From contig NCGO01000006.1 in the NCBI GenBank assembly GCA_002256985.1, positions 94,551 through 158,550 of the forward strand: a stretch of 64,000 nt of DNA, in the 5' to 3' direction. Of the stretch, positions 52,011 to 64,000 are shown one piece after another. Under the pieces are notes generated by a model, which worked only from the letters and a program-made list of their open reading frames with translations, ran no database searches and was not told where the DNA came from. Each line of letters starts with the position of its first letter. The first letter of the stretch is position 1. The translations under genes were made by a program, and so were the position numbers. The DNA comes from Novosphingobium sp. 28-62-57. GTDB lineage: Bacteria > Pseudomonadota > Alphaproteobacteria > Sphingomonadales > Sphingomonadaceae.

Positions 52011-52016
52011 TTGTCC

Positions 52017-52673
52017 ATGTCCAAGTCCTTCGGGGCCAAAGGCAACGGCGCATGTCTCCAGACGTGTTCTCAGGATCCGGCCAACCGCCGGAATGCCTCG
52101 CGGGCTGGGACTTGGCGTTTGACAAAACCTCTTGCAGCAAAGGCAGGCCATGACTGCAATGGCCAGAATGCCGCAGAAGCTCGTCCACCCGACGTGGCAG
52201 CTATTGAGGCTGAATACCGCCACTCACGCCCCTCGCTGCTGCGCAAACTCGCTCGTAAGACCGGCATGACTATGGCGGAGGATCTCGTTCAGCAGGTGTT
52301 CCTGCGTCTCATGGTGAGCCGCCAGCGCCAGATCGATAACTTGTCCGGCTACGTGCGCGTTGCTACAGACAACGCGAGGAAAGACCTTGTCAGGCAGGAG
52401 TTGCGCCAGCACCGTCACAGCCATGAGCCGTTTGAGGATATACATCCGGGATCCGATTTCCAGTCGCAACTAGAAGCGCGCGATCGCCTTGCCCGGCTCG
52501 AACAGGCGCTTGCCCGACTTAAGCCACTAACGCGAAACATCTTCCTTGCCCGCCGGCTCGATGGTTATAGCTATGCCGAGATCGCAGAACAGACGGGGTT
52601 GAGCGTGCGGGGCGTGGAGAAACAGATGAGTCGGGCGCTCAAGGCTCTGGCGCGGCATCTCGCCGAGGATTGA
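52017..52673 (+). CDS. FecI-type ECF sigma factor
   Basis: The protein is up to 218 residues from ATG at 52017; the first 60 are not sigma-like, and a GTG at 52194 could be the true start. Region 2 is MAEDLVQQVFLRLMVSRQRQ, then LSGYVRVATDNARKDLVRQE; region 4 is LTRNIFLARRLDGYSYAEIA and GLSVRGVEKQMSRALKAL. With FecR and a TonB receptor downstream it forms a cell-surface signalling set. Its target is probably the receptor/isopeptidase operon. Confidence 0.88.
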   Translation: MSKSFGAKGNGACLQTCSQDPANRRNASRAGTWRLTKPLAAKAGHDCNGQNAAEARPPDVAAIEAEYRHSRPSLLRKLARKTGMTMAEDLVQQVFLRLMVSRQRQIDNLSGYVRVATDNARKDLVRQELRQHRHSHEPFEDIHPGSDFQSQLEARDRLARLEQALARLKPLTRNIFLARRLDGYSYAEIAEQTGLSVRGVEKQMSRALKALARHLAED

Positions 52674-52679
52674 CCGCGC

Positions 52680-53642
52680 GTGACGAGACAACCCATTCCC
52701 AACAAGATCCGCGATGAAGCGGCAGAGTGGCTGGCGCGCAACGAGAATGCCGGTCAATCGCGCGCACCCGGTTTCGAAGCGTGGCTTGCCAGCGACCTGC
52801 GACATCGTCTCGCGTACGCCGAAGTGGAGCGCGCGTGGCGCGATAGCCTGGCCCTGGATCAGAGCCCCCTTGGCCAGGAGCGCAAGCTGACCCGTGCACC
52901 GTTGCACCTGCAACGCAGCACACAGCTCGCCGCCGTCGGCGCATGCCTGTTGCTTGGCATGGGATTGCTGACAATGCGGCTTTCAGGGAACCACCCGGTC
53001 TTCGGCGTTGGAACCACCGTTGAAGCCAAGACATATGTCACGGCAGCAGGCGAAACGCGGACATGGCATCTCGTCGATGGAAGTTCCTTGACGCTGAAAG
53101 GGCTCAGCAAGGCGCGAACCGATATCACGCCTGCCAGCCGCCAAGTGACGATCGATGGCGGTCGCGTTCGCATCCGTGTGGCTCGGCGCGACAAACATGC
53201 AATGCAGATCATCGGTGCCGGCACCAGAATCGAAAGTGTCGAAGGTGCAGTGGACATTGTACTTGTGGAGAATGGTCTGAGCGTCGAGGTCGTTGATGGC
53301 GATGTTCAGGTGCAGAGCGCCGAAGGCGCTCGGCACACACTTGGCCGCGGGTCTCACATGATCGAAACTGGGCCATCTGTGCCCAAACATCGCTCCGGGC
53401 GAATCGGTTCGGCACAACCTGCCATGACGACCGGTGACCGCATATCTTTGGGAGAAGCGGTCAGCCTGCTCAACGCGCGCAATGGCCTACAGCTTCGCCT
53501 CGCAAGTCCTGCGCTGGCCGACAGGACTCTGGCAGGTGCCATTCGCCTCGACGATCCAGAAGGTTTTGCGAGGATTCTTGAGGCCTTGGGCGGAATTTCG
53601 GTAACGCGGCGCGCCGACGTGTTAGTGATCGACACAGCCTGA
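52680..53642 (+). CDS. FecR-family anti-sigma/sigma regulator
   Basis: The 320-residue protein starts GTG 6 bases after the sigma-factor stop. Residues 1-60 form the cytosolic sigma-binding domain (DEAAEWLARNENAGQS, HRLAYAEVERAW). A membrane helix lies at about 82-102 (LAAVGACLLLGMGLLTMRL). The periplasmic FecR domain (about 110-215, GETRTWHLVDGSSLTLKGLS) is followed by an STN-like C-terminal domain (SLGEAVSLLNARNG). It should read the signal passed by the TonB receptor STN domain. Confidence 0.9.
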   Translation: MTRQPIPNKIRDEAAEWLARNENAGQSRAPGFEAWLASDLRHRLAYAEVERAWRDSLALDQSPLGQERKLTRAPLHLQRSTQLAAVGACLLLGMGLLTMRLSGNHPVFGVGTTVEAKTYVTAAGETRTWHLVDGSSLTLKGLSKARTDITPASRQVTIDGGRVRIRVARRDKHAMQIIGAGTRIESVEGAVDIVLVENGLSVEVVDGDVQVQSAEGARHTLGRGSHMIETGPSVPKHRSGRIGSAQPAMTTGDRISLGEAVSLLNARNGLQLRLASPALADRTLAGAIRLDDPEGFARILEALGGISVTRRADVLVIDTA

Positions 53643-53891
53643 AGCCTCCTGACCCCCTCGAGAATCTGTCGATGATCCTTGGGTTGTCCGACCGGCGGCT
53701 CATCTCCCTGCGAGAGCACTCTTTCGCTTCCCGGACAGAGGAAAGGAGGCGGTGGATCGGTGCGCGCTGACGGCTCGGCATGATCTCAACAAGTAGCGGT
53801 GGATACCCTGACCGGCTGCGGGCCGTCGGCTAACATGAGTGCCGGAAAAAATTCTGGCGGGTGTATTTGCGCGATGGCGTCCCAACCGATG

Positions 53892-53913
53892 CGCGTCCCT
53901 TGAGACGGACGCG
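53892..53913 (+). promoter_or_regulatory. Leader hairpin before the TonB receptor ribosome site
   Basis: CGCGTCC at 53892-53898 pairs with GGACGCG at 53907-53913 and abuts the ribosome-binding AGGGAGG. It could affect translation of the receptor. The function is a guess. Confidence 0.4.
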
Positions 53914-53925
53914 AGGGAGGCAATC

Positions 53926-56862
53926 ATGACGTTCAAGACATCAACGCATGCCAGGGTCATCGCAATGCTGACGGCACCTTTTGTGGCGGCAGCGACGGCG
54001 GGCGCGCAGGAGACCGATACCTTTACGCTGGACCTGCCGGCGCAGGCCATGGCGCGATCGCTGCACGATCTTGCCGCCAAAGCCGGTGCGACCATCGTCG
54101 CAGACGACAAGCTTGTGGCGGGCCGCACTGCTCCGGCAGTGCAGGGGAACTACACTCTCGTTGGCGCGCTTGGCAAAATCCTCGAGGGCTCGGGACTTCA
54201 GGGCATCGCGACTGGACAGGGATACGCAATCCGCCCTGCAGCATCGGCCATGGCAAAGCGTGGTGCATCCGCAGAAAGCGGTACTGACGATATTGTGGTA
54301 ACCGGCACGCGCATTCGGGGTTCGGCACCGGCGGGCGCTGCCGTGATCGCGATCGACCGCAAGGCCATCGAGGAAAGCGGCCGGGCAACGGTGCAGGACC
54401 TTGTCTCGGTCCTTCCGCAGAACTTCGGGGGAGGGCCCAACGAAGGCACGCTCGGCTTTACCCAGCGGAACAATGCCAATGCCAACATTGGTTCCGGTGC
54501 CAGCATCAACTTGCGCGGCCTTGGCACGACCTCGACCCTGACGCTCGTCGATGGTAATCGCCTGGCGCTGGGAGCCGCGAGCTCCACCGTCGACATCTCA
54601 CTGATTCCGGCCAGTGCGATCGAACACATCGAAGTCCTCGCAGATGGTGCGTCAGCCATCTACGGCTCCGATGCTGTTGCAGGCGTAGTCAACGTGCGCC
54701 TGCGGCGCGGATATGAAGGGGCCGAGACATCCTTTCGGGTCGGTATCGCCGACGGCTTCAGCGATATCCAGACAAGCCAGTTGGCGGGTCTGCGCTGGAA
54801 CAGCGGCAGCCTGATGGCGGCCTACGAATACTACCGGCGCGACCGCCTCGACGCCCAGGATCGTGACTATGCAACGGAGGACCTTACCCGCTTTGGTGGC
54901 CCTGACTATCGTCAGGCATTTGCCAATCCTGGCACGATAACTGCAGCCAATGGCGCCATCTTCGGCATACCGGCAGGACAGGATGGTAGGGCGCTGCAGG
55001 CAAACGATCTGCTAGCCGGAGTGCGCAACCTTGGCGACGGCCGGCGCCTGACCGATATCCTGCCACACACACGCAGACACGCGGGCGTCATCGCGCTCGA
55101 ACAGGACCTGTCATCCTGGCTGACCATGCGGCTTCAGGGTTTTGCCGCCGACCGCCGCTCTGACCAGCGTTACATCGTCTTTGGATCGCAAGTTACGGTG
55201 CCCGTGAGCAACCCGTTCTATGTCGATCCGATCGGAACGGGTCAGCCGGTTAGCGTCGGTTATGATTTTCGCGACGATCTCGGTCCGAATGTCAATCGTT
55301 CGCACGTCACCAACTGGACGATTGCAGGCGCGCTGGAAGCACACTTCGGTGCATGGCGTGGAGAGGCATACGGCAATCAAGGCGTCCAGCATGAAGAACT
55401 CCTGCGGGACAATCTCGTCAATCGCGCACGGCTTGCGCAGGCTCTCGCCGATCCCGATCCGGCCAAGGCTTTCAATGTGTTCGGTGATGGCTCGCACACC
55501 AGCGCAGCTACCATCGCCTATGTGCGCGGATCATCACTGACCAGTGCACGCTCGCGCCAGAGCACCGCCGGTCTCAAGTTCGATGGGCCGCTCCTCGCGC
55601 TTCCAGGTGGCGCGCTGACGCTGGCATTCGGAGGAGAATATCGCGAGGAGGCATACGGTTCGCGCAGCCTCGCAGATGAGACGACTCTTGCTCCGGTCGC
55701 CAGCGGTGACAATGGTTACCCTCTTGCGCGCAACGTGATTGCGGGATTTGCTGAACTCCGCGCACCGCTGGTCGGTCCGGAGCAAGATATTGCCGGCATG
55801 CATCGGCTCGACCTGTCGATGGCAGGACGCATCGAGCGCTACTCGGATTTCGGGACGACGACCAATCCCAAGATCGGACTGACCTGGGAGCCGGTGCGGG
55901 GACTTGCGTTGCGAGGCTCCTACGGGACCTCGTTTCGTGCACCTGGCTTCTTCGACGTGCGCCAGGGTCCGGGTCTCAGCCAGGTCGTGCCGATACCCGT
56001 CACAGACCCCGGCTCACCTTCGGGAAGTAGCAATGTCATTGCCCTGTTCGGCAATGATCCCGGGATCGGCCCGGAGCGCGCCCGGACATGGACGGCGGGC
56101 TTCGACCTCAAACCTTCTACGATGCCCGGGCTTTCCATGAGTGCCACGTGGTTTGACATTTCCTACACGGACCGCATCTTCAATCCGGCGGTCGACGCCT
56201 TCACCTTCCTTGCCCAGCGTTCGCGCTACGAGCCACTCATCACGGCCAATCCGTCGTCAGCGCAAGTGGCAAGCTTCTATGCGAGCCCCGATTTCAGCAA
56301 TCCTTTCGGCATTGCTGCGGGCTCGATCCGATACGTAATCGATGCACGCAACGCCAACCTGGCGCGCAACCATCTCGACGGGATAGATTTTGATCTCAGT
56401 TACCGCCACGAGACGGCCAGAAGTGCGCTTTCGCTTGGCGCATCGGGGAGCTGGCTGTTCCACCTGACGCAGCAGTTGACGTCGGCTGCTCCACCCACGC
56501 AAGCCTTGGGGACGATCGGCAACCCGGTGCGCTATCGTTTGCGCGGGCGCGCCGGGTTCGAACAGGATGGATTCGGTGCGACAGCCTTCGTCAATCACAT
56601 GGCGGGCTATCGCAATACTGCGGTGGCACCGGTCGAGTCGGTTGCAAGCTGGACGACTGTTGATCTTACGCTTTCCAAACGGTTCGGAGAGGAAGCCGGG
56701 GCCATGGCGGGCACGCGCTTTGCCTTGAGCATCACCAACCTTTTCGATCGTGATCCTCCCTATGTGAACAATCGCACGCCGTTCAGTGCAGCCGGCTTCG
56801 ATCCCGAGCAGGCAAGCGCAGTTGGACGGTTTGTCGCAGTGCAGGTGACGAAGTCATGGTAA
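53926..56862 (+). CDS. TonB-dependent receptor with STN signalling domain, lasso-peptide locus
   Basis: The protein is 978 residues from ATG at 53926 (GAGGGAGG upstream). After a signal peptide ending TAGAQ comes the STN domain at about 28-105 (FTLDLPAQAMARSLHDLAAK), then a TonB box DIVVTGTRI and a plug with VQDLVSVLPQNFGG and LVDGNRLALGAASS. The barrel ends in VQVTKSW. The STN domain marks a transducer for FecR/FecI. Its stop overlaps the isopeptidase start by 7 bases, so it most likely imports the lasso peptide cleaved by that enzyme. Confidence 0.92.
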   Translation: MTFKTSTHARVIAMLTAPFVAAATAGAQETDTFTLDLPAQAMARSLHDLAAKAGATIVADDKLVAGRTAPAVQGNYTLVGALGKILEGSGLQGIATGQGYAIRPAASAMAKRGASAESGTDDIVVTGTRIRGSAPAGAAVIAIDRKAIEESGRATVQDLVSVLPQNFGGGPNEGTLGFTQRNNANANIGSGASINLRGLGTTSTLTLVDGNRLALGAASSTVDISLIPASAIEHIEVLADGASAIYGSDAVAGVVNVRLRRGYEGAETSFRVGIADGFSDIQTSQLAGLRWNSGSLMAAYEYYRRDRLDAQDRDYATEDLTRFGGPDYRQAFANPGTITAANGAIFGIPAGQDGRALQANDLLAGVRNLGDGRRLTDILPHTRRHAGVIALEQDLSSWLTMRLQGFAADRRSDQRYIVFGSQVTVPVSNPFYVDPIGTGQPVSVGYDFRDDLGPNVNRSHVTNWTIAGALEAHFGAWRGEAYGNQGVQHEELLRDNLVNRARLAQALADPDPAKAFNVFGDGSHTSAATIAYVRGSSLTSARSRQSTAGLKFDGPLLALPGGALTLAFGGEYREEAYGSRSLADETTLAPVASGDNGYPLARNVIAGFAELRAPLVGPEQDIAGMHRLDLSMAGRIERYSDFGTTTNPKIGLTWEPVRGLALRGSYGTSFRAPGFFDVRQGPGLSQVVPIPVTDPGSPSGSSNVIALFGNDPGIGPERARTWTAGFDLKPSTMPGLSMSATWFDISYTDRIFNPAVDAFTFLAQRSRYEPLITANPSSAQVASFYASPDFSNPFGIAAGSIRYVIDARNANLARNHLDGIDFDLSYRHETARSALSLGASGSWLFHLTQQLTSAAPPTQALGTIGNPVRYRLRGRAGFEQDGFGATAFVNHMAGYRNTAVAPVESVASWTTVDLTLSKRFGEEAGAMAGTRFALSITNLFDRDPPYVNNRTPFSAAGFDPEQASAVGRFVAVQVTKSW

Positions 56863-58880
56863 CGCGATGGTACTCAGTCCCGCTGTCGTTTGCCATGGCC
56901 GCCCCGGTCCCGTTTGCAGCGCAAGCTGCGGACGGGGCCGGGATCCGGCCCGCCATAGAAATCACGCGGATCGATAGCCCGTCCATCTCGCCGGATGGCT
57001 CGCTGGCCTTGTGGCGCGAGTACCGCGCCTCGGTCGACCGCAATGATTATGATGCCGCATGGCTGGTGGCGCCGTCTGACGGTTCGGCGCCTGCAAGACG
57101 CATCGCCGATGCTGGCGAAATAGAATGGCTCAACGGCTTTCCCCTGGCGTCGAGCGCGCAGTGGACGCGCGATGGCAGAAACGTGTTGTTTCGCAAGATC
57201 GCAGGCGGGCAAGTCCAGGTCTGGAGAGCAGCGACAGACGGATCAGGTGCTGCGCAGGTTACCAGCGAGGCTGGCAATGTCAGAGACATGATCCCTCTTG
57301 CAGGTGGCAAGGCATGGTTGCTCGGGTTTGGCCCGGAGCGCGCCGCGATCGAGGCGGCCGAGCAGACCGAGTACGATGGCGGAACGCGGATCGATGCAAC
57401 CGTCGATCCGCAAAGGCCGCTATATCGTGGCGATCGCATCGATGGCCGCTGGGCAAGCGGACGTCTCCAGGGCGCCTGGTTCGAGCAGGGCGGCATCATG
57501 CCTGCGGGCCAGCCCAAGCTCAAGGTGCTCGGGCAAGACCTCGTGACAATCCGCGATGCCACTGCCGTGGAGGCCCGCAATTACGCCTCCCGCCCGCGCT
57601 CGCTCGAACGCTTGGCTGACTGGTACGTGGCCCTGCGCCAGCCCTCGGGCGATGCCAGGGGCGTTGCGGTTGTCCTGTCCAAAGGCGTGGCGTCGCGTCT
57701 GGTCATCGTCAATGCCCAGGGGCAGGAACTGGCGCGCTGTGAAGCCGTGCAATGCAAAGCTGCTCGGGCGCGTTCAGTCGCTTGGGCTGGCACGGACAAT
57801 GCCCTGATTTTCGAAGGCCGCAATCGCCACGGTGGCAGCACACTGGCAAGATGGGACCCGGCCAGTGGCCAGGTCGAGGAGGTGTTCCAGAGTTCGGGCG
57901 AACGCAATGGCGGAGACAACGGCAAGGCTTGCGCGGCTTCGACCCGGATGCTCATCTGTGTCGCGTCCACGGCCAACGAGCCACCGCGCGTGGTGGCGGT
58001 TGATCTGGCAACACGCCATGAGCAGGTCCTCAGCGCTCCCAATGCGCCGCTCGAGAACCCAACTATCCGCTTCGACCGGCAGGTCTGGCAAGACCGCGCA
58101 GGGCGAACGTTCTCGGGATATCTGGCTCTACCGCCAGGCCAGACCCGGCCAGTGCCGCTGTTCATTACCTACTATTCCTGCGAGGGGTATCTGCGCGGCG
58201 GGACGGGGGACGAGTATCCCTTGCGCGATCTCGCAGCATCGGGAATCGCGGCCTTGTGCATCAATCGTCATCCCGGCCTGGCGGGCGGCGGGGACAACGT
58301 CGAAGCCTACGCGGTCGCTGCCAGCGGGATCGCGGCGATCATCGGAGAGCTGTCCGGGCAGGGCAAGATCGATGTTTCGCGCGTCGGCATGGGCGGGGTC
58401 AGCTTCGGCGGCGAAGTCACAGCCTGGCTCGCCATGCACACTAGGTTGCTGAAGGCCGCAGCGGTGGCCAACGTCATGGTCACCCCGACCTACTTCTGGT
58501 TCAATGCCGTCGCGGGGCGCGACGTGCCCGCCATGCTCAAGTCGGCCTGGGACCTGGGTGATCCCGATACGGATCAGGCCGGGTGGAGGCGCGTATCCCC
58601 CGCCTTCAATGCCGACCGCATCTCGGTGCCGTTGCTGATGCAATTGCCCGAGCAGGAGTATCGCGCCAACGTTGAGCTCCTTGCGCGGCTGCAGCGCGCC
58701 GGGAAACCTGTCGAACTCTGGGCATTTCCCGGTGAAATGCACCTCAAATGGCAACCGCGTCACCAGTTGGCGGCCAACCTGCGCAACTTCGACTGGTTCA
58801 GGTTCTGGCTGCTGGGTGACGCGGGCGGCAAGCCTGCTGATCCGGCATCCTGGCAACGCTGGCGGGATATGAAGCCCTGA
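56856..58880 (+). CDS. Lasso-peptide isopeptidase (AtxE2 family, S9-like)
   Basis: The 674-residue protein has a signal peptide (about 1-25, ending AAQA). A beta-propeller spans about 35-400 and the alpha/beta-hydrolase domain about 405-660. The nucleophile is Ser516 in GGVSFGGE, and His629 lies in FPGEMHLKW. The acid appears to be Glu599 (QLPEQ), at the same 83-residue spacing as the Ser-Glu pair of AtxE2. It opens the isopeptide bond of threaded lasso peptides in the periplasm. It is coupled to the TonB receptor and converges on lasC. Confidence 0.88.
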   Translation: MVTRWYSVPLSFAMAAPVPFAAQAADGAGIRPAIEITRIDSPSISPDGSLALWREYRASVDRNDYDAAWLVAPSDGSAPARRIADAGEIEWLNGFPLASSAQWTRDGRNVLFRKIAGGQVQVWRAATDGSGAAQVTSEAGNVRDMIPLAGGKAWLLGFGPERAAIEAAEQTEYDGGTRIDATVDPQRPLYRGDRIDGRWASGRLQGAWFEQGGIMPAGQPKLKVLGQDLVTIRDATAVEARNYASRPRSLERLADWYVALRQPSGDARGVAVVLSKGVASRLVIVNAQGQELARCEAVQCKAARARSVAWAGTDNALIFEGRNRHGGSTLARWDPASGQVEEVFQSSGERNGGDNGKACAASTRMLICVASTANEPPRVVAVDLATRHEQVLSAPNAPLENPTIRFDRQVWQDRAGRTFSGYLALPPGQTRPVPLFITYYSCEGYLRGGTGDEYPLRDLAASGIAALCINRHPGLAGGGDNVEAYAVAASGIAAIIGELSGQGKIDVSRVGMGGVSFGGEVTAWLAMHTRLLKAAAVANVMVTPTYFWFNAVAGRDVPAMLKSAWDLGDPDTDQAGWRRVSPAFNADRISVPLLMQLPEQEYRANVELLARLQRAGKPVELWAFPGEMHLKWQPRHQLAANLRNFDWFRFWLLGDAGGKPADPASWQRWRDMKP

Positions 58881-58932
58881 TCGCTCATCGGTCCGCTATC
58901 GCGATGGCTGGTCGATTGCGCCGGTCAGCAAC

Positions 58933-60642
58933 TCAAGGATCGCCTAGCCAGGCGCGAAGCCAGCTCTCGGTGTCGATCAGCGGCAGGAGAAGATGTGCCC
59001 GGGGATCCGCGCGCCTTGCCCTTTGCCGCAACGCGCTCTCCACTCTGGCCAGATCGAGCAGGCCCTGGCGCGCCAAATGACCATCCAGCAGAAACGGTAG
59101 CAGTTCTCGTGTCTGCTGCTCAATCGCGGCAAGTGCGTAGCCATCGAGTGCTCCTTTGCTGCGTCGATCGCGGATCAGGTCGGGCAGGCGGTTTGCAAAT
59201 GCGGCACGGGCTACGGCCCGGTCCTGCCCGCCCTCGACCCAGAGCCAGCTTGGTATGCGCAAGGCGGTTTCGACGACGGGCTGGCTGAGCAGCGGAAACC
59301 GCGTCGGGGCAATGGCGTGGCGAGGATAACCGTCGACGTGAGCGAGGCTGGCGAGGATGGCATGAACATGGTCCCGCTTTCCGGGCAGCATGCTGATGGT
59401 TTCAGTGAGCCACGGGTGCAGCGGAGCGCCGGCAAAGTGCACAGTATCGGCAAGATATCCGCAGGTGCGCGGCCACTCGCCCCGCTCGTTTGCGCCTCGT
59501 GCTTGCTGCCAGGCCCTGCCAGCGACTGACCAGACACTGGCATTGTGATAACGGGCAAGCGCCTCGATGGTGCGCCAGGTGGACATCGCCGCCCAACCCG
59601 AGCGGATGGCGGCATCAGCCGCAGCCCCGGCAGCGTTTGGCGTTGCAAAGACGCAATCGCCACCCGCGCCGCTGAAGAATGCTGTGATTGCCAGCGCCTT
59701 GCCCTTTTTTGCCAGCACCGCGTCGGCAGCTTCGAGAATAATCGGCAGGCCAGGACGGGCTTCGCGGCTTCGTGCCGGGCCAACCAGGTTGGATATCCCG
59801 ACTTCGCGCAGTTCGAGCGGGATGCCTGCAGCATCGGCGGCCGCTTGCGCATAGATGCGCTCATCGCTCTCCGCCGAGCCCGTCGAAAGGCTGACCGCTA
59901 GCGCCTGGGCCTCACAGGTCGTCAAGGCTGATGCAATGATCGAGGAATCGAGCCCACCCGACAATTCGAGCAGGACCTTGCCCTCACCTGCGAGGCACCG
60001 GACAGCCTCGTCTATGCTGTCGGCAAGGCGTCTGTTGGCGTCAGCGAAGTCCGCGATCTCGATGTCGGGGCGCACGAACTTTCCCGGGGACCAGGCCGTT
60101 GTTCTCCTCGCCGGTTCCACGGCAAAATCGAGCCATTGCCCGCCCAGAAGTTCTTCGATGCCGATCAGGCCGGTTTGCACGGTCTTGAGATGCTGGAAAG
60201 CAAGGTGCTTCGCGACGAAAGTCCAGTCGATTTGCGGCTTTGCAGAGCACGCAGGAGCAAGCACTGGGACATGCGAGGAGACCCACAGTTTGCCGGCCAC
60301 AGCGGCCGTGTAGACAGGGAGATGGCCAAGCGGCGCTCGCAGCAACCACGCCGGACGCCCGTTCTTGGACATGTGCAGAGCAAGGTAGTTGCCCCAGCAA
60401 TGCGCCAAGAGCAGGTCGGGATGAAGGTCGGCGCGCTGCAACACCGCAAGATCGCCGAAGATCTGTCCGATGATCACCGTCCTGCCGATTTGCCGAAATG
60501 CAGTCGATGGTGAGACATGGATGGTCAGCCCTTCGAACGTTCGTGAGCGCCACGGACCGGGCGCCCGGTGAATGAGATTCTCGGGCGATCGCTCATCCGG
60601 CTGCCCGTCGAGGGCGAATTCGGCGAGATAGCCTTCGGTCAC
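58933..60642 (-). CDS. Lasso-peptide macrolactam synthetase C (asparagine-synthetase-like)
   Basis: The 569-residue protein starts GTG at 60642, overlapping the B stop (GTGA). The N-terminal glutaminase-like half lacks the catalytic Cys after the start (VTEGYLAEF). The synthetase half has the PP-loop SGGLDSS at about 228-234 and FFSGAGGDCVFA near 330. It adenylates the side-chain carboxylate (here predicted Glu8) and closes the ring on Gly1. Its end converges with the isopeptidase at a 52-base gap. Confidence 0.92.
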   Translation of the reverse strand: MTEGYLAEFALDGQPDERSPENLIHRAPGPWRSRTFEGLTIHVSPSTAFRQIGRTVIIGQIFGDLAVLQRADLHPDLLLAHCWGNYLALHMSKNGRPAWLLRAPLGHLPVYTAAVAGKLWVSSHVPVLAPACSAKPQIDWTFVAKHLAFQHLKTVQTGLIGIEELLGGQWLDFAVEPARRTTAWSPGKFVRPDIEIADFADANRRLADSIDEAVRCLAGEGKVLLELSGGLDSSIIASALTTCEAQALAVSLSTGSAESDERIYAQAAADAAGIPLELREVGISNLVGPARSREARPGLPIILEAADAVLAKKGKALAITAFFSGAGGDCVFATPNAAGAAADAAIRSGWAAMSTWRTIEALARYHNASVWSVAGRAWQQARGANERGEWPRTCGYLADTVHFAGAPLHPWLTETISMLPGKRDHVHAILASLAHVDGYPRHAIAPTRFPLLSQPVVETALRIPSWLWVEGGQDRAVARAAFANRLPDLIRDRRSKGALDGYALAAIEQQTRELLPFLLDGHLARQGLLDLARVESALRQRARRADPRAHLLLPLIDTESWLRAWLGDP

Positions 60643-61316
60643 AGTGCCAGTACCACTTCGAAGCGGCGCACCTTGTCCAGTGGATCGGTCAGCACGAGGC
60701 CACCTGATTGAACCCAGCAATGGGCTTCGAAGGGATGAAGTTTTACCCCGAAAACCAGATCGACGGCAAAGCCCTCCCGCCTTGCCATGTGCGCATAGGC
60801 CAGCGCATCAGGGAGGCATCTTGGCCGAATCGGCGCAAAGCGTCGCGCCCTGTCGAACGCACGTGCGTGTGTGACAAGATCACCGGTAGTACGGCCGCGA
60901 GATGCTGTCGGCAGGTCGATCAGGACTTGATGGAGCGTGGCAAAGCGCAAAGCCATCCTGGCGCGAATGCAGTTCCAGACGCTCATGAGCAAATATGCGG
61001 GCCGCACCCGACCGGCTTCGGGACCCTCCAGCGCGCTGTTGGTTGGGGTCCGGATGTCCCTCGCCGTCAGCCAAGGTCCTGCGTTGTGTGTTTCGCTCGT
61101 GACCAGGCCATGTTTCTCCAGTTTGCGGCAGTCGTCCAGACGCACCGGACACGGATTGCCACTCCGCAGGTCCCGCAGCGCTGAGGCGCAAGACCCGTTC
61201 CACATCGTGTAGCGATCGTGCCGCGCATCGAGCACGATGGCCTTGTCGCCGATCAGCGCAACACCGACCGCGGTTGCGATCCGGCGAGTGAGAAAATCCG
61301 AGCTAAGCGAAGTCAT
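60639..61316 (-). CDS. Lasso-peptide leader peptidase B (RRE plus transglutaminase-like B2)
   Basis: The protein is 225 residues from ATG at 61316 (GAGG at -9); an in-frame GTG at 61370 would add 18 residues of non-homologous look. Residues 1-80 resemble a PqqD-type RRE that binds the leader. The C-terminal part has the papain/transglutaminase triad: Cys167 (RPRCLPDAL), His199 (EAHCWV) and Asp211 (LTDPLD). It cuts the leader off the precursor. Fusion of B1 and B2 is normal for proteobacterial lasso clusters. Confidence 0.9.
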   Translation of the reverse strand: MTSLSSDFLTRRIATAVGVALIGDKAIVLDARHDRYTMWNGSCASALRDLRSGNPCPVRLDDCRKLEKHGLVTSETHNAGPWLTARDIRTPTNSALEGPEAGRVRPAYLLMSVWNCIRARMALRFATLHQVLIDLPTASRGRTTGDLVTHARAFDRARRFAPIRPRCLPDALAYAHMARREGFAVDLVFGVKLHPFEAHCWVQSGGLVLTDPLDKVRRFEVVLAL

Positions 61317-61381
61317 GTCGGCCTCGTACATGGACAAGGCAGGTGTGCCTGGCGAGAAGGCCATGCACACCTGCCAGTGGA

Positions 61382-61513
61382 TCAGTCGCGATCAAGGCCC
61401 GGCAGTTGCGCGAGCACACCGAACTCGATCTGATCTCCCGGAGGGCCGAGCGTTTCGATGCTGGCGGTGCCCAGGTCTTCAACGTCTTCGACGAGATGGA
61501 AAGTGCGTTCCAT
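61382..61513 (-). CDS. Lasso-peptide precursor A
   Basis: A 43-codon gene read directly from the sequence, with AAGGAG seven bases before the ATG. The leader MERTFHLVEDVEDLG continues with TASIETL and carries Thr at position -2. The predicted core has 21 residues: ring GPPGDQIE (Gly1 to Glu8), then FGVLAQLPGLDRD as loop and tail. Phe9, Leu12, Leu15 and Leu18 could form plugs; C-terminal Asp-Arg-Asp is charged. The next gene is lasso B, 65 bases on. No close match to known cores comes to mind. Confidence 0.88.
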   Translation of the reverse strand: MERTFHLVEDVEDLGTASIETLGPPGDQIEFGVLAQLPGLDRD

Positions 61514-61598
61514 CGGTCTTCTCCTTTTTACCTCGCCGCGTGATTGCGGCAGGATCAGACTATGGACGGCGTTGAGCTATCTGAAATTTATACGAATT
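61514..61598 (-). promoter_or_regulatory. Leader region of the lasso ABC genes
   Basis: Eighty-five bases between the GntR stop and the precursor start, AT-rich near 61588-61610 with the imperfect palindrome ATACGAATTCTAT. It holds the ribosome site AAGGAG. Whether it has its own promoter or is read through from gntR cannot be told. Confidence 0.4.
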
Positions 61599-62234
61599 CT
61601 ATATGCCGATTGTTGGCGCGGGCGGGGTCGCCGGTCGGTGCAGGGCGCGCAGGATCTCGGCAGAGCTGCGAATGCGACGACGGTGGTAGGCGCCAAGTAA
61701 CCGTCGCAGCTGGTCCTTGTCGCCGCTGTCCAGCGCGCGTTCGATGTCGCAGACTTCTGTGATGGAGCCTTGCAGCACGCACGGTTCGATCATGCGAACG
61801 GCATGGAGGCGTGCGTTAAGGAAGACCATGACCCTTCCATGCTCCGTGTTGATTGAAGCGCGTGCCACCCCTTCGAGTGCATCGGCAACGCGTTCGGCAT
61901 AAGCCGTCCGACGCTCGGCGATCCGGTCCCAGTCCACGATCGTCCATGGCCGCAAAAGGCGGAGCGCTAGGCCCAGCACTTCGTTACTAAAGGAATACAT
62001 GTCTTTGAGCGTTGGCTCGTCGAGAGTCGGGAGAAAGAACCCGCCCGCGCGATGTGTCACGACAAGCTGCTCTCCGCACAGCACATGCAGGGCCTCGCGC
62101 ACAGGCGTGACGCTTGCACAGAGCTGCTCGCTGATTATTGCGGGATCGAGCCTCTCACCCGGCATGAACGCGCGCGACAGGATCATGATACGCAATGCGT
62201 CATAGACGCGCTCTGCTATAGGGCCGGGGCTCAT
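61599..62234 (-). CDS. GntR family (FadR-type) transcriptional regulator
   Basis: The 211-residue protein has an N-terminal winged HTH (IAERVYDALRIMILSRAFMP, then LDPAIISEQLCASVTPVREAL and HRAGGFFL). The C-terminal domain is all-helical FCD-like (about 80-205) with LHAVRMI and HRRRIR as metal/ligand helices. It overlaps the PhyH gene by 4 bases. It lies between the PhyH/LuxI pair and the lasso precursor on the same strand, so it may control both. Confidence 0.88.
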   Translation of the reverse strand: MSPGPIAERVYDALRIMILSRAFMPGERLDPAIISEQLCASVTPVREALHVLCGEQLVVTHRAGGFFLPTLDEPTLKDMYSFSNEVLGLALRLLRPWTIVDWDRIAERRTAYAERVADALEGVARASINTEHGRVMVFLNARLHAVRMIEPCVLQGSITEVCDIERALDSGDKDQLRRLLGAYHRRRIRSSAEILRALHRPATPPAPTIGI

Positions 62235-63103
62235 CCGCTTCTCCCGTGAGCAAAGGCACTTGCTTGCTGCATCTGGTCAGGACGCAGGGCGTCGATTGCC
62301 CCAAGGGGCTCTCCCTTGTAGTCCCCAAGCAGGACCGAAGGGCATTGCCCCTCGAAGTTTCCAAGATTCGGCCGGTGTTGTACGTAACCTGCAAGTGCCG
62401 AAAGCGCCGGCGGAAAAGTTTTTGCGATCTCGGGTGGATAGGCAAGCCACGGGTTTTCGTAAGGTTTGAGCCAGCCCAGCGAATAGCCGATCACGATACC
62501 GCGCCGCTCTTGCGCACTCGCGTTTTCGCCCGCGCCATGCAGCGTCGAGCCGAGAAACAGCAATGCTGATCCCGGGGAAAGTTCAGGCGAGATGAAGTCC
62601 GCATCGGCAAAGGCCGATAGCGCGTGGCAGCCATGGCTTTGCGGCCAGATCCGCGTGCCCCCGTTCCTTTCCGTAAAGCTGGTCAGCGGCCACATGACGT
62701 TCACGAGATATTCGCGTTTGCCGAAATCGGCTTGCCACATGTCCTGGTCGCGATGTGGTAACTGCGACGGGGCGCCAGGATGGACCGAAATAGCCTGAGT
62801 CGTGTTGAGCTGGATGCGATCGCACCAGGGACCAAGGATCTGACTCACAACATCCTGAATGACGGGATGCAGGACCAGGCACTGCGTGGCAGCGGAACGT
62901 CGGAGAAGCCTGCCAAACCGCTTGGTCCGCTCGCCGTAGAACATCCCTGTGCCGAAAGGCGTGGCTGCAAAGTCGTCGTCCAGATCCTTTTGAAGCTGCT
63001 CGATCACGGACGCGGGCAGGGCTTCATGCAGGATCGCGTAGCCATCAGCCTGCAGCTGACCGGCGATCATGCCCGGTTGGTTGGCCGGATCCATCAGTGC
63101 CAC
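62231..63103 (-). CDS. Phytanoyl-CoA dioxygenase (PhyH) family Fe(II)/2-oxoglutarate oxygenase
   Basis: The 290-residue protein has the double-stranded beta-helix ligands: His117 and Asp119 in LPHRDQDMW, His189 in GSTLHGAGEN, and Arg200/Arg201 for 2-oxoglutarate. SPGSALLFLGSTLH is a standard PhyH stretch. It hydroxylates an acyl chain, amino acid or peptide; the substrate is unknown. It overlaps the LuxI-type gene by 10 bases and gntR by 4, so the three are one transcription unit. A tailoring or signal-modifying role is inference. Confidence 0.87.
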   Translation of the reverse strand: MALMDPANQPGMIAGQLQADGYAILHEALPASVIEQLQKDLDDDFAATPFGTGMFYGERTKRFGRLLRRSAATQCLVLHPVIQDVVSQILGPWCDRIQLNTTQAISVHPGAPSQLPHRDQDMWQADFGKREYLVNVMWPLTSFTERNGGTRIWPQSHGCHALSAFADADFISPELSPGSALLFLGSTLHGAGENASAQERRGIVIGYSLGWLKPYENPWLAYPPEIAKTFPPALSALAGYVQHRPNLGNFEGQCPSVLLGDYKGEPLGAIDALRPDQMQQASAFAHGRSG

Positions 63104-63735
63104 TCCTTTTGCCCGGCGGGCAGTGGGCTGGATTTGGCCGGAGCAAGTTTGTCACCGTGGCTGCAATGGATTCCGGCCGCATCGAGCAGTTGCGGTGTGT
63201 CGGCGGTAATGCCAATTTCAAGACCGACCAGTTCCTGCCCTCCTGTCCGGATGGGCGCACCCAAAGCCCGGCAGCTCCAGCCGAACCGTTCGATCTGCCT
63301 GAACCAGTCAAGGCCTGCGACTGCGCAGTACCGCGAAATCCTGGCCTCGATGGCATAGGTTGCAAGCGCGTGGACAAGGGCATTGCGGACGTCGCGCCGC
63401 TCTCGGGCGTTCAGTGACCTGTCGAGGCAGAAACGGGTGATCTCGAACGTATCTGGTGCGCAAGGCACGGGCCCAGCACAGAGCATCGGGAAAAGGCCCG
63501 ACAGAATTCCTTGCCGTGTTGTCGGCAGGAGTCTCGCAGACGCGAGGTGATCGCCGTTGTAGCTCAAGATCAGGTATCGTGCGTGCTCATCGTCAAACTG
63601 GTCCATTTCGTATTGCCCGGCGAGGACCGGCAAGTCCCATCCAAGTAGATCGATGAAGACTGCCTTTCTTGCAGCAAACATGGCGCGCAGCAGGGCAGCG
63701 TCCGGCTCGGTGCCGGGCGTCGTGACTTTGATCAT
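63094..63735 (-). CDS. LuxI-type acyl-homoserine-lactone synthase-like protein
   Basis: The protein is 213 residues from ATG at 63735. Conserved LuxI residues are all present: Arg23, Phe27 and Trp33 (RKAVFIDLLGW), Asp45 and Asp48 (DQFDDEH), Arg68 (SARLLP), and Glu98 and Arg101 (EITRF). The fold is GNAT-related and should couple an acyl donor to S-adenosylmethionine. No LuxR gene is in the window. It is first in the unit luxI - phyH - gntR leading to the lasso genes. The acyl chain is unknown. Confidence 0.85.
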   Translation of the reverse strand: MIKVTTPGTEPDAALLRAMFAARKAVFIDLLGWDLPVLAGQYEMDQFDDEHARYLILSYNGDHLASARLLPTTRQGILSGLFPMLCAGPVPCAPDTFEITRFCLDRSLNARERRDVRNALVHALATYAIEARISRYCAVAGLDWFRQIERFGWSCRALGAPIRTGGQELVGLEIGITADTPQLLDAAGIHCSHGDKLAPAKSSPLPAGQKEWH

Positions 63736-63795
63736 TGCAGCGGTGCTCCTCAACCGAACTGGTCGGTCGAGGATCAACCGGCTGCCTGATCCTCG

Positions 63796-63903
63796 CTATC
63801 CCCAGAAATGGGGGTAGCGCCACGGCTGGACATCTCCGAACGTGAGTGTTCCGTCATAAAGGGTCAGGGTGATCAGCAATTGTCTCTTGAAAATCCCGTA
63901 GCT
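63796..63903 (-). pseudogene. Truncated gene, C-terminal fragment, unknown
   Basis: Thirty-five codons on the minus strand read IHSYGIFKRQLLITLTLYDG and then TLTFGDVQPWRYPHFWG, stopping at TAG 63798-63796. Upstream the frame hits a stop inside the putative insertion-sequence end, so the gene lost its 5' part. I do not recognise the family. Confidence 0.5.
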
Positions 63904-64000
63904 GTGGATCGGCGTGCAAAAAGGACCCCGTTAGCGGGGTGATCGGCGTCTAAAAGGGACCCCTCATTTCGATGGTTTAAGCAGCTGGCTGGATTTTCAG
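63904..64000. mobile_element. Putative IS21-family element end
   Basis: Two 23-base direct repeats at 63907-63929 and 63941-63963 (20 of 23 identical, GATCGGCGT...AAAA.GGACCCC) are separated by a short CCCCGTTAGCGGGG hairpin. Repeated blocks of this kind near a TG tip mark the ends of IS21-type elements. The window ends before any transposase gene, so the call is not proven. Confidence 0.55.

Follow-up and report, generated by a model that had tools for sequence, protein, structure and literature searches.

A subterisin-type lasso precursor gene in Novosphingobium, with a candidate leader RNA over its ribosome site and luxI nearby

Introduction

What does the small gene in front of the lasso protease gene of Novosphingobium sp. 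28-62-57 encode, and how might its expression be controlled? What isopeptidase-type lasso peptides do in nature is unsettled, and PMC9266682 calls their role enigmatic. A first-pass annotation of the locus had proposed a 43-codon lasso precursor gene whose product would carry a Gly1-Glu8 ring and a core unlike those already known. We followed up these proposals in the window (the whole stretch of 64,000 nucleotides that was analysed) and in related genomes.

Materials and Methods

The 105 precursor places of the genus yielded 90 leaders (15 places were left out). Together with 13 leaders from named records and that of the window, this gave 104. Four further precursors (L039, L044, L046 and L047) duplicate the protein sequence of L038 or L045 and stayed out of the set. 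L021, a copy of the window, was removed, as were L022, L075 and L082, whose start or tandem context was uncertain. The 84 distinct leaders were reduced to 70 at less than 80% identity; alignment A1 consists of the window and these 70, and alignment A2 is a hand-made selection of 24 among the 71 rows of A1. From 54 places in other genera 29 leaders were fetched and 26 added, resulting in a set of 96 leaders that excludes the window and includes the near-identical L024. A class-wide search matched 2 of 385 genomes, namely the window's own and one with a 22.8-bit hit below cut-off. Since no further precursor over cut-off was obtained in this way, the leader comparison was confined to the bacterial family.

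As controls we used 104 non-redundant ORFs out of 144 of at least 150 codons with ATG and a motif resembling the Shine-Dalgarno sequence (SD), the starts being called by script. The strand-swap test is alignment-free and uses fixed coordinates: an upstream strand (-52 to -32) is paired with an SD strand (-22 to -3), and partners are permuted 10000 times. The ring sub-type was defined as the 8 precursors fitting the pattern ETLG.PG or ETLGSLG.

Results and Discussion

Gene A and its product

Gene A lies on the minus strand (61382..61513), with its ATG at 61513 and a stop codon that ends at 61382. The 43 codons are exactly those proposed, and the good ribosome site noted before them is the SD sequence AAGGAG (61521..61526, minus strand), 7 nt upstream of the ATG. 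The precursor is composed of a leader peptide of 22 residues, MERTFHLVEDVEDLGTASIETL (61513..61448, minus strand), and a core of 21 residues, GPPGDQIEFGVLAQLPGLDRD (61447..61385, minus strand). As in other lasso precursors, the leader has Thr at position -2 (TL-G junction), and the core starts with Gly and has an acid, Glu8, within ring positions 7-9. The precursor scored 52.5 bits with PF24178 (Subterisin, cut-off 27) and 40.5 bits with NF033522 (the NCBIfam benenodin family, cut-off 33). It is the sole match to either family in its own 4.1-Mb genome (one match per family), and neither family matched in any of 14 control genomes.

Gene B (60639..61316, minus strand) follows directly, as had been annotated; between the two lies a strong hairpin with 11-bp arms, GGCAGGTGTGC ... 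GCACACCTGCC (61338..61375, minus strand). Gene C comes next, so that A adjoins both the protease and the synthetase of a lasso system. The reading frame of A is maintained among relatives, since dN is 0.021-0.032 and dS 0.176-0.220 against five close relatives (dN/dS about 0.10-0.15). Loss of the frame beside the same B and C genes had been named in advance as the result that would speak against a precursor. A strict pattern found a precursor-like ORF near B in 17 of 28 B-containing loci, including all 11 in which B is at least 42% identical over nearly its whole length; the 11 loci in which it found none are L048-L058. At the level of sequence, 61382-61513 (minus strand) is confirmed as a genuine lasso precursor gene.

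Some clusters carry at least two precursors in tandem: L012/L075 (G127:C22), L062/L087 (G053:C35) and L023/L083 (G193:C1).

The core is not novel. It had been described as resembling no known core, and this claim is wrong: the scan of 28 B loci found the core GPPGDRIEFGVLAQLPGLDRD at the same place in all five Novosphingobium genomes whose B is 76-79% identical to that of the window. These include N. subterraneum DSM 12447. Its core is identical to GPPGDQIEFGVLAQLPGLDRD at 20 of 21 residues, with Arg6 in the ring where the window has Gln6, and its leader peptide differs at one residue (Asp6 there, His6 here). Subterisin itself reportedly comes from Sphingomonas subterranea (Kuroha et al. 2017), a name that the taxonomy equates with N. 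subterraneum. We take the GPPGDRIE... gene of N. subterraneum to be the maker of the published peptide; its precursor scores 50.1 bits with PF24178, and the genome has a second PF24178 precursor at 32.8 bits. S. subterranea is also given as the source of subterisin in PMC11006600.

The subterisin system of N. subterraneum and that of the window also share the order A-B-C, the isopeptidase and the TonB-dependent receptor. Thus the lasso peptide specified by gene A is very probably of the subterisin type, with a Gln6 form of the N. subterraneum core. That gene A should instead specify a new peptide, whose core bears no relation to those known, is hardly credible: one core residue and one leader residue do differ, but the remaining 20 core residues are shared, and the Pfam family that matches the precursor at 52.5 bits is named Subterisin. 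As far as sequences can decide, the unrelated core is refuted.

Searching the PDB sequences (a library of chains of at least 20 residues) with the precursor returned only a SNARE protein (E 1.3), and with the core no match. Two 10-letter strings of the core had no occurrence in a text search of the literature.

The predicted Gly1-Glu8 macrolactam ring is well supported, because Glu8 is invariant in the 8 sub-type precursors, whereas Asp, Asn and Val all occur at position 5. The proposed ring and the dismissal of Asp5 as the ring acid both agree with this pattern. Among 108 distinct precursors, 95 have an acid at position 8 and the other 13 at position 9 only. The remoter sub-type relatives GAPGNQLE, GSLGNQIE, GAPGNQIE and GLPGVQNE also carry Gln6; therefore Gln6 may be the older state of core position 6. 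The calculated mass of the dehydrated 21-residue product is 2175.096 Da, and that of a C-terminally trimmed form would be, for example, 1675.857 Da. As a natural ring variant, the Gln6 form could be used to probe how position 6 bears on folding and on isopeptidase recognition.

The gene cluster

B is a transglutaminase-like leader protease (PF13471, 78.3 bits; NF033537, 76.6 bits, cut-off 33). Its residues Cys167, His199 and Asp211, presumably the catalytic ones, are invariant in an alignment of five sequences including that of the window. C (58933..60720, minus strand; start codon uncertain) is an asparagine-synthetase-like macrolactam synthetase (PF00733, 92.8 bits). Beyond it, on the plus strand, lie genes for an AtxE2-type lasso isopeptidase (56856..58880; NF033523, 548 bits, cut-off 400), a TonB-dependent receptor (53839..56862; PF00593, PF07715, PF07660), a FecR-like anti-sigma regulator (52680..53642; PF04773) and a FecI-like ECF sigma factor (52011..52673; PF08281). 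On the other side, A is preceded by a gene for a GntR-family regulator (61599..62234, minus strand; PF00392, 45.4 bits), which is retained before A in close relatives. Isopeptidase, TonB receptor, FecI/FecR and GntR are thus all present, as in isopeptidase-type clusters.

Every gene from gntR through the receptor was found in all five close relatives (L032-L036), and FecR and FecI were found in four. The longer series of luxI, phyH, gntR, A, B, C, isopeptidase and receptor was found in four of the five; luxI and phyH were not found within the stretch examined of L034. In L032 the isopeptidase gene lies about 3.5 kb farther off, and the stretch examined stops inside the receptor gene. Outside chromosomes, 16 plasmid records have B relatives, all below 60% identity, and none of 13 candidate stretches of viral contigs encodes one.

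This layout is already known, since a GntR gene before the precursor, with TonB and sigma genes beyond the isopeptidase, is called almost constant in PMC9266682. As described there, astexin, benenodin and sphingopyxin clusters share with the window both the GntR gene before A and the receptor and sigma/anti-sigma genes beyond the isopeptidase. The window differs from such clusters by a luxI-phyH module directly upstream and by a luxR gene that is broken in this strain. The sphingocin cluster (PMC11006600) likewise combines A-B-C with a divergent set containing isopeptidase and TonB receptor; the sphingocin core sequence differs from that of the window. None of the genes from fecI to luxI was recognised as encoding an ABC exporter. 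According to PMC11006600, the subterisin cluster is also without an ABC transporter and the peptide occurs in the supernatant.

Gene content, order and conservation are as observed above, and we infer the following enzymatic steps, uptake and signalling. B would bind the leader peptide and cut after Leu22, and C would link the amine of Gly1 to the side chain of Glu8 around the threaded tail. The exported peptide would probably be re-imported through the neighbouring TonB-dependent receptor; once returned, it could signal via FecR/FecI, after which the isopeptidase would open it.

The luxI-phyH module

Upstream of gntR, on the minus strand, lie genes for a PhyH-type Fe/2OG dioxygenase (62231..63103; PF05721, 92.6 bits) and a LuxI-type acyl-homoserine-lactone synthase (63094..63777; PF00765, 66.9 bits). 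Among 195 genomes of the genus, PF24178 occurred in 67 (105 places) and LuxI in 69 (101 places, one gene being counted as two pieces). LuxI was found within 20 kb of 68 of the 105 precursor places, and a precursor within 20 kb of 63 of the 101 LuxI places (raw counts that ignore kinship of genomes), compared with about 1% expected from random placement (estimate 0.0135). Two layouts predominated. At 40 of the 105 places luxI lies within 3 kb, always upstream and on the same strand; at 23 others it is on the opposite strand, 9-20 kb downstream (9-13.4 kb in 21 cases). Contigs without any LuxI account for 31 of the 105 places. In 40 genomes of other genera, LuxI was within 20 kb of 33 of 54 precursor places, kinship again being ignored. 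Thus lasso precursors have a luxI neighbour far more often than expected by chance, an adjacency that is not in itself proof of regulation.

PhyH, as an Fe/2OG-type enzyme encoded two genes upstream of A, might hydroxylate the lasso peptide. CanE provides a precedent with canucin (PMC9266682). The distribution of phyH argues against such a role, which we regard as very improbable: phyH lies within 2.5 kb of 56 of the 63 precursor-near LuxI genes and of 30 of the 38 that are not near a precursor, and 7 precursor-linked LuxI genes have no phyH within 2.5 kb (in one, G128, it lies at 2.9 kb). Since phyH is similarly frequent near LuxI with or without a precursor, it goes with luxI. In G078, phyH and a luxI were each matched as two overlapping pieces (G078:C1:3453658-3454522 and G078:C2:1128303-1128796), which suggests frameshifts.

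A neighbouring luxI-phyH pair in Novosphingobium was described in 2013, in a text that does not contain the word lasso (PMC3704786). PMC9716278 reports a lassopeptide-homoserine lactone region from a single strain, Sphingomonas sp. So64.6b, in which a lasso cluster and homoserine-lactone genes form one antiSMASH region. No family-wide account of a link between lasso clusters and luxI appeared in the titles and abstract openings of the literature searched.

Upstream of luxI, a luxR remnant (63799..63915, minus strand) matches residues 218-256 of the 256-residue LuxR of N. subterraneum, its first few residues running into the end of an insertion sequence that closes the contig (63902..64000). 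The latter is taken as a multi-copy insertion sequence because 98-99 of its bases recur identically at the ends of five other contigs. Of LuxR, no more than about the C-terminal 35-39 residues are left between this sequence and luxI. The LuxR N-terminal domain (95 bits in N. subterraneum) had no match in the window's assembly, and the rest of the N. subterraneum protein had no convincing match there (best other E 5.6e-5, residues 96-230, 32% identity). In this strain luxR would thus have been cut by the insertion sequence. In L034, other ORFs, read by eye as transposase and reverse transcriptase, occupy the place where luxI and phyH would lie. The signal module is therefore damaged or was not found in 2 of 6 clusters that keep their lasso genes, which speaks against signalling being needed to retain these genes.

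The 5' leader of gene A

Upstream of A, a hairpin is predicted in the 5' leader of the mRNA (61516..61560, minus strand; minimum free energy -18.3 kcal/mol). Its outer strands, GTCT-GA-TCCT (61560..61551) and AGGA-GA-AGAC (61525..61516), enclose an inner hairpin, GCCGC-AATCAC-GCGGC (61550..61535), and the outer 3' strand overlaps the SD, which has a predicted pairing probability of 0.62. Most of the precursor leaders examined share this predicted fold, a GC-rich hairpin nested in a stem whose 3' strand holds the SD. Averaged over 70 leaders, the 60 nt preceding the ATG had a folding energy 2.5 sd below that of dinucleotide shuffles.

RNAalifold predicted no structure on the full 71-row MAFFT alignment (A1), and on the 24 hand-picked rows (A2) it returned the inner stem only. 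We therefore relied on the alignment-free strand swap and on counts in the inner stem. In 96 leaders, the upstream strand paired with its own SD strand at -11.33 kcal/mol, against -9.39 kcal/mol for permuted partners (sd 0.26; z -7.5, 0/10000). The 26 leaders of other genera gave -11.21 against -9.49 kcal/mol (z -3.5, 5/10000). The 104 control genes showed no preference for their own partner (-9.73 against -9.74 kcal/mol; z 0.0, 5141/10000). Thus the SD and upstream strands match each other family-wide, as proposed for a leader that sequesters its SD. A strand farther upstream of A also slightly prefers its own SD (z -1.9, 299/10000; 4/10000 in the first version of the test), and relatedness therefore explains part of the matching.

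Pairing probabilities gave a similar picture. Pairing between the SD and a strand lying at least 15 nt upstream exceeds a probability of 0.5 in 86% of the 96 A leaders and 24% of the 104 controls, the means being 0.72 and 0.27 (p 3e-19); in 5 of the 96 leaders the SD is hardly paired (probability below 0.3). In the inner stem, 87.2% of pairs are standard and double-change cells number 21, compared with 82.3% and 7.1 in shuffles (0/500 for each), and sliding the partner drops pairing to 28-66%.

Such a hairpin could also be an inverted repeat of the DNA, acting as an operator, or a product of composition or relatedness, without any control of translation by RNA. Operator-like palindromes do lie just upstream, inner-stem mismatches show no excess of G-U over A-C (21 and 20), and the leader of the window, judged by itself, does not reach significance (z -1.71; 13 of 200 shuffles fold equally well). 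However, in 67 of 71 leaders the SD core falls within the best duplex formed with the upstream strand, and the own-partner preference is absent in control genes. Moreover, over 50 nt folding favours the sense over the antisense strand by 2.12 kcal/mol (p 3.6e-6; controls 0.50, p 0.06), a modest asymmetry that shrinks over 60 nt (1.80, compared with 1.14 kcal/mol in controls, control p 0.013). An origin at the DNA level or from composition thus appears rather unlikely.

Alternatively, the hairpin might shield the 5' end of the mRNA from decay, SD pairing being a by-product without regulatory meaning. It would indeed be near the 5' end if the promoter included a CATAG-like block that some loci have about 50 nt ahead of the ATG. 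A hairpin serving stability would not need outer SD-pairing strands matched to each other, and we find this explanation doubtful.

The matching of the strands was observed; the chances that the 5' leader controls the translation of A are about even. Folded over the ribosome site, the leader would probably restrain translation. The most far-reaching reading joins this control to the genomic context, and we give it a probability of roughly 0.5. According to it, subterisin/benenodin precursors in Sphingomonadaceae would be preceded by a previously undescribed cis-acting RNA, in which an outer stem maintained by compensatory change locks the SD as a translational switch. The peptide would probably belong to a density-controlled programme, because such clusters so often adjoin luxI, and the strain of the window would retain the synthase and the lasso genes but no longer have the signal receptor.

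No SD-sequestering leader before lasso precursors was described in the titles and abstract openings of the open-access literature searched. Rfam gave no match over threshold in 20 loci, and within 61300-61800 of the window it returned only P5 (E 7.1, 14.3 bits, cut-off 60), outside the leader. An RNA thermometer is unsupported, since the predicted unpaired fraction of the SD in the window rises only from 0.36 (15°C) to 0.42 (60°C). A terminator at the leader was rejected, as neither of the two terminator-like sites in 58800-64000 lies there.

PMC7549694 lists the removal of a hairpin for expression of astexin-1, and its table gives replaced ribosome sites for heterologous production of several isopeptidase-type lasso peptides. 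A leader lock, if true, might help to explain these replacements. Together with the luxI link it would offer two direct handles on when and why such peptides are made, and it is the leader RNA and the luxI association that merit experimental work.

Upstream DNA elements

A perfect 15-bp palindrome, TATACGAATTCTATA (61589..61603), lies upstream of A, where it overlaps the 3' end of gntR and could serve as an operator. It occurs once in the window at up to 2 mismatches and is identical in all five close relatives (L032-L036). Some other loci carry different palindromes before A, for example GAATATATCGCG...CGCGATATATTC in L020, as if each GntR had its own operator. A scan of 58800-64000 detected no sigma-70-like promoter. 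A TTCGGA block was present in 18 of the 96 A upstream regions and in 1 of the 104 controls, at -115 to -38 and mostly at about -73 to -67, and is possibly a promoter element.
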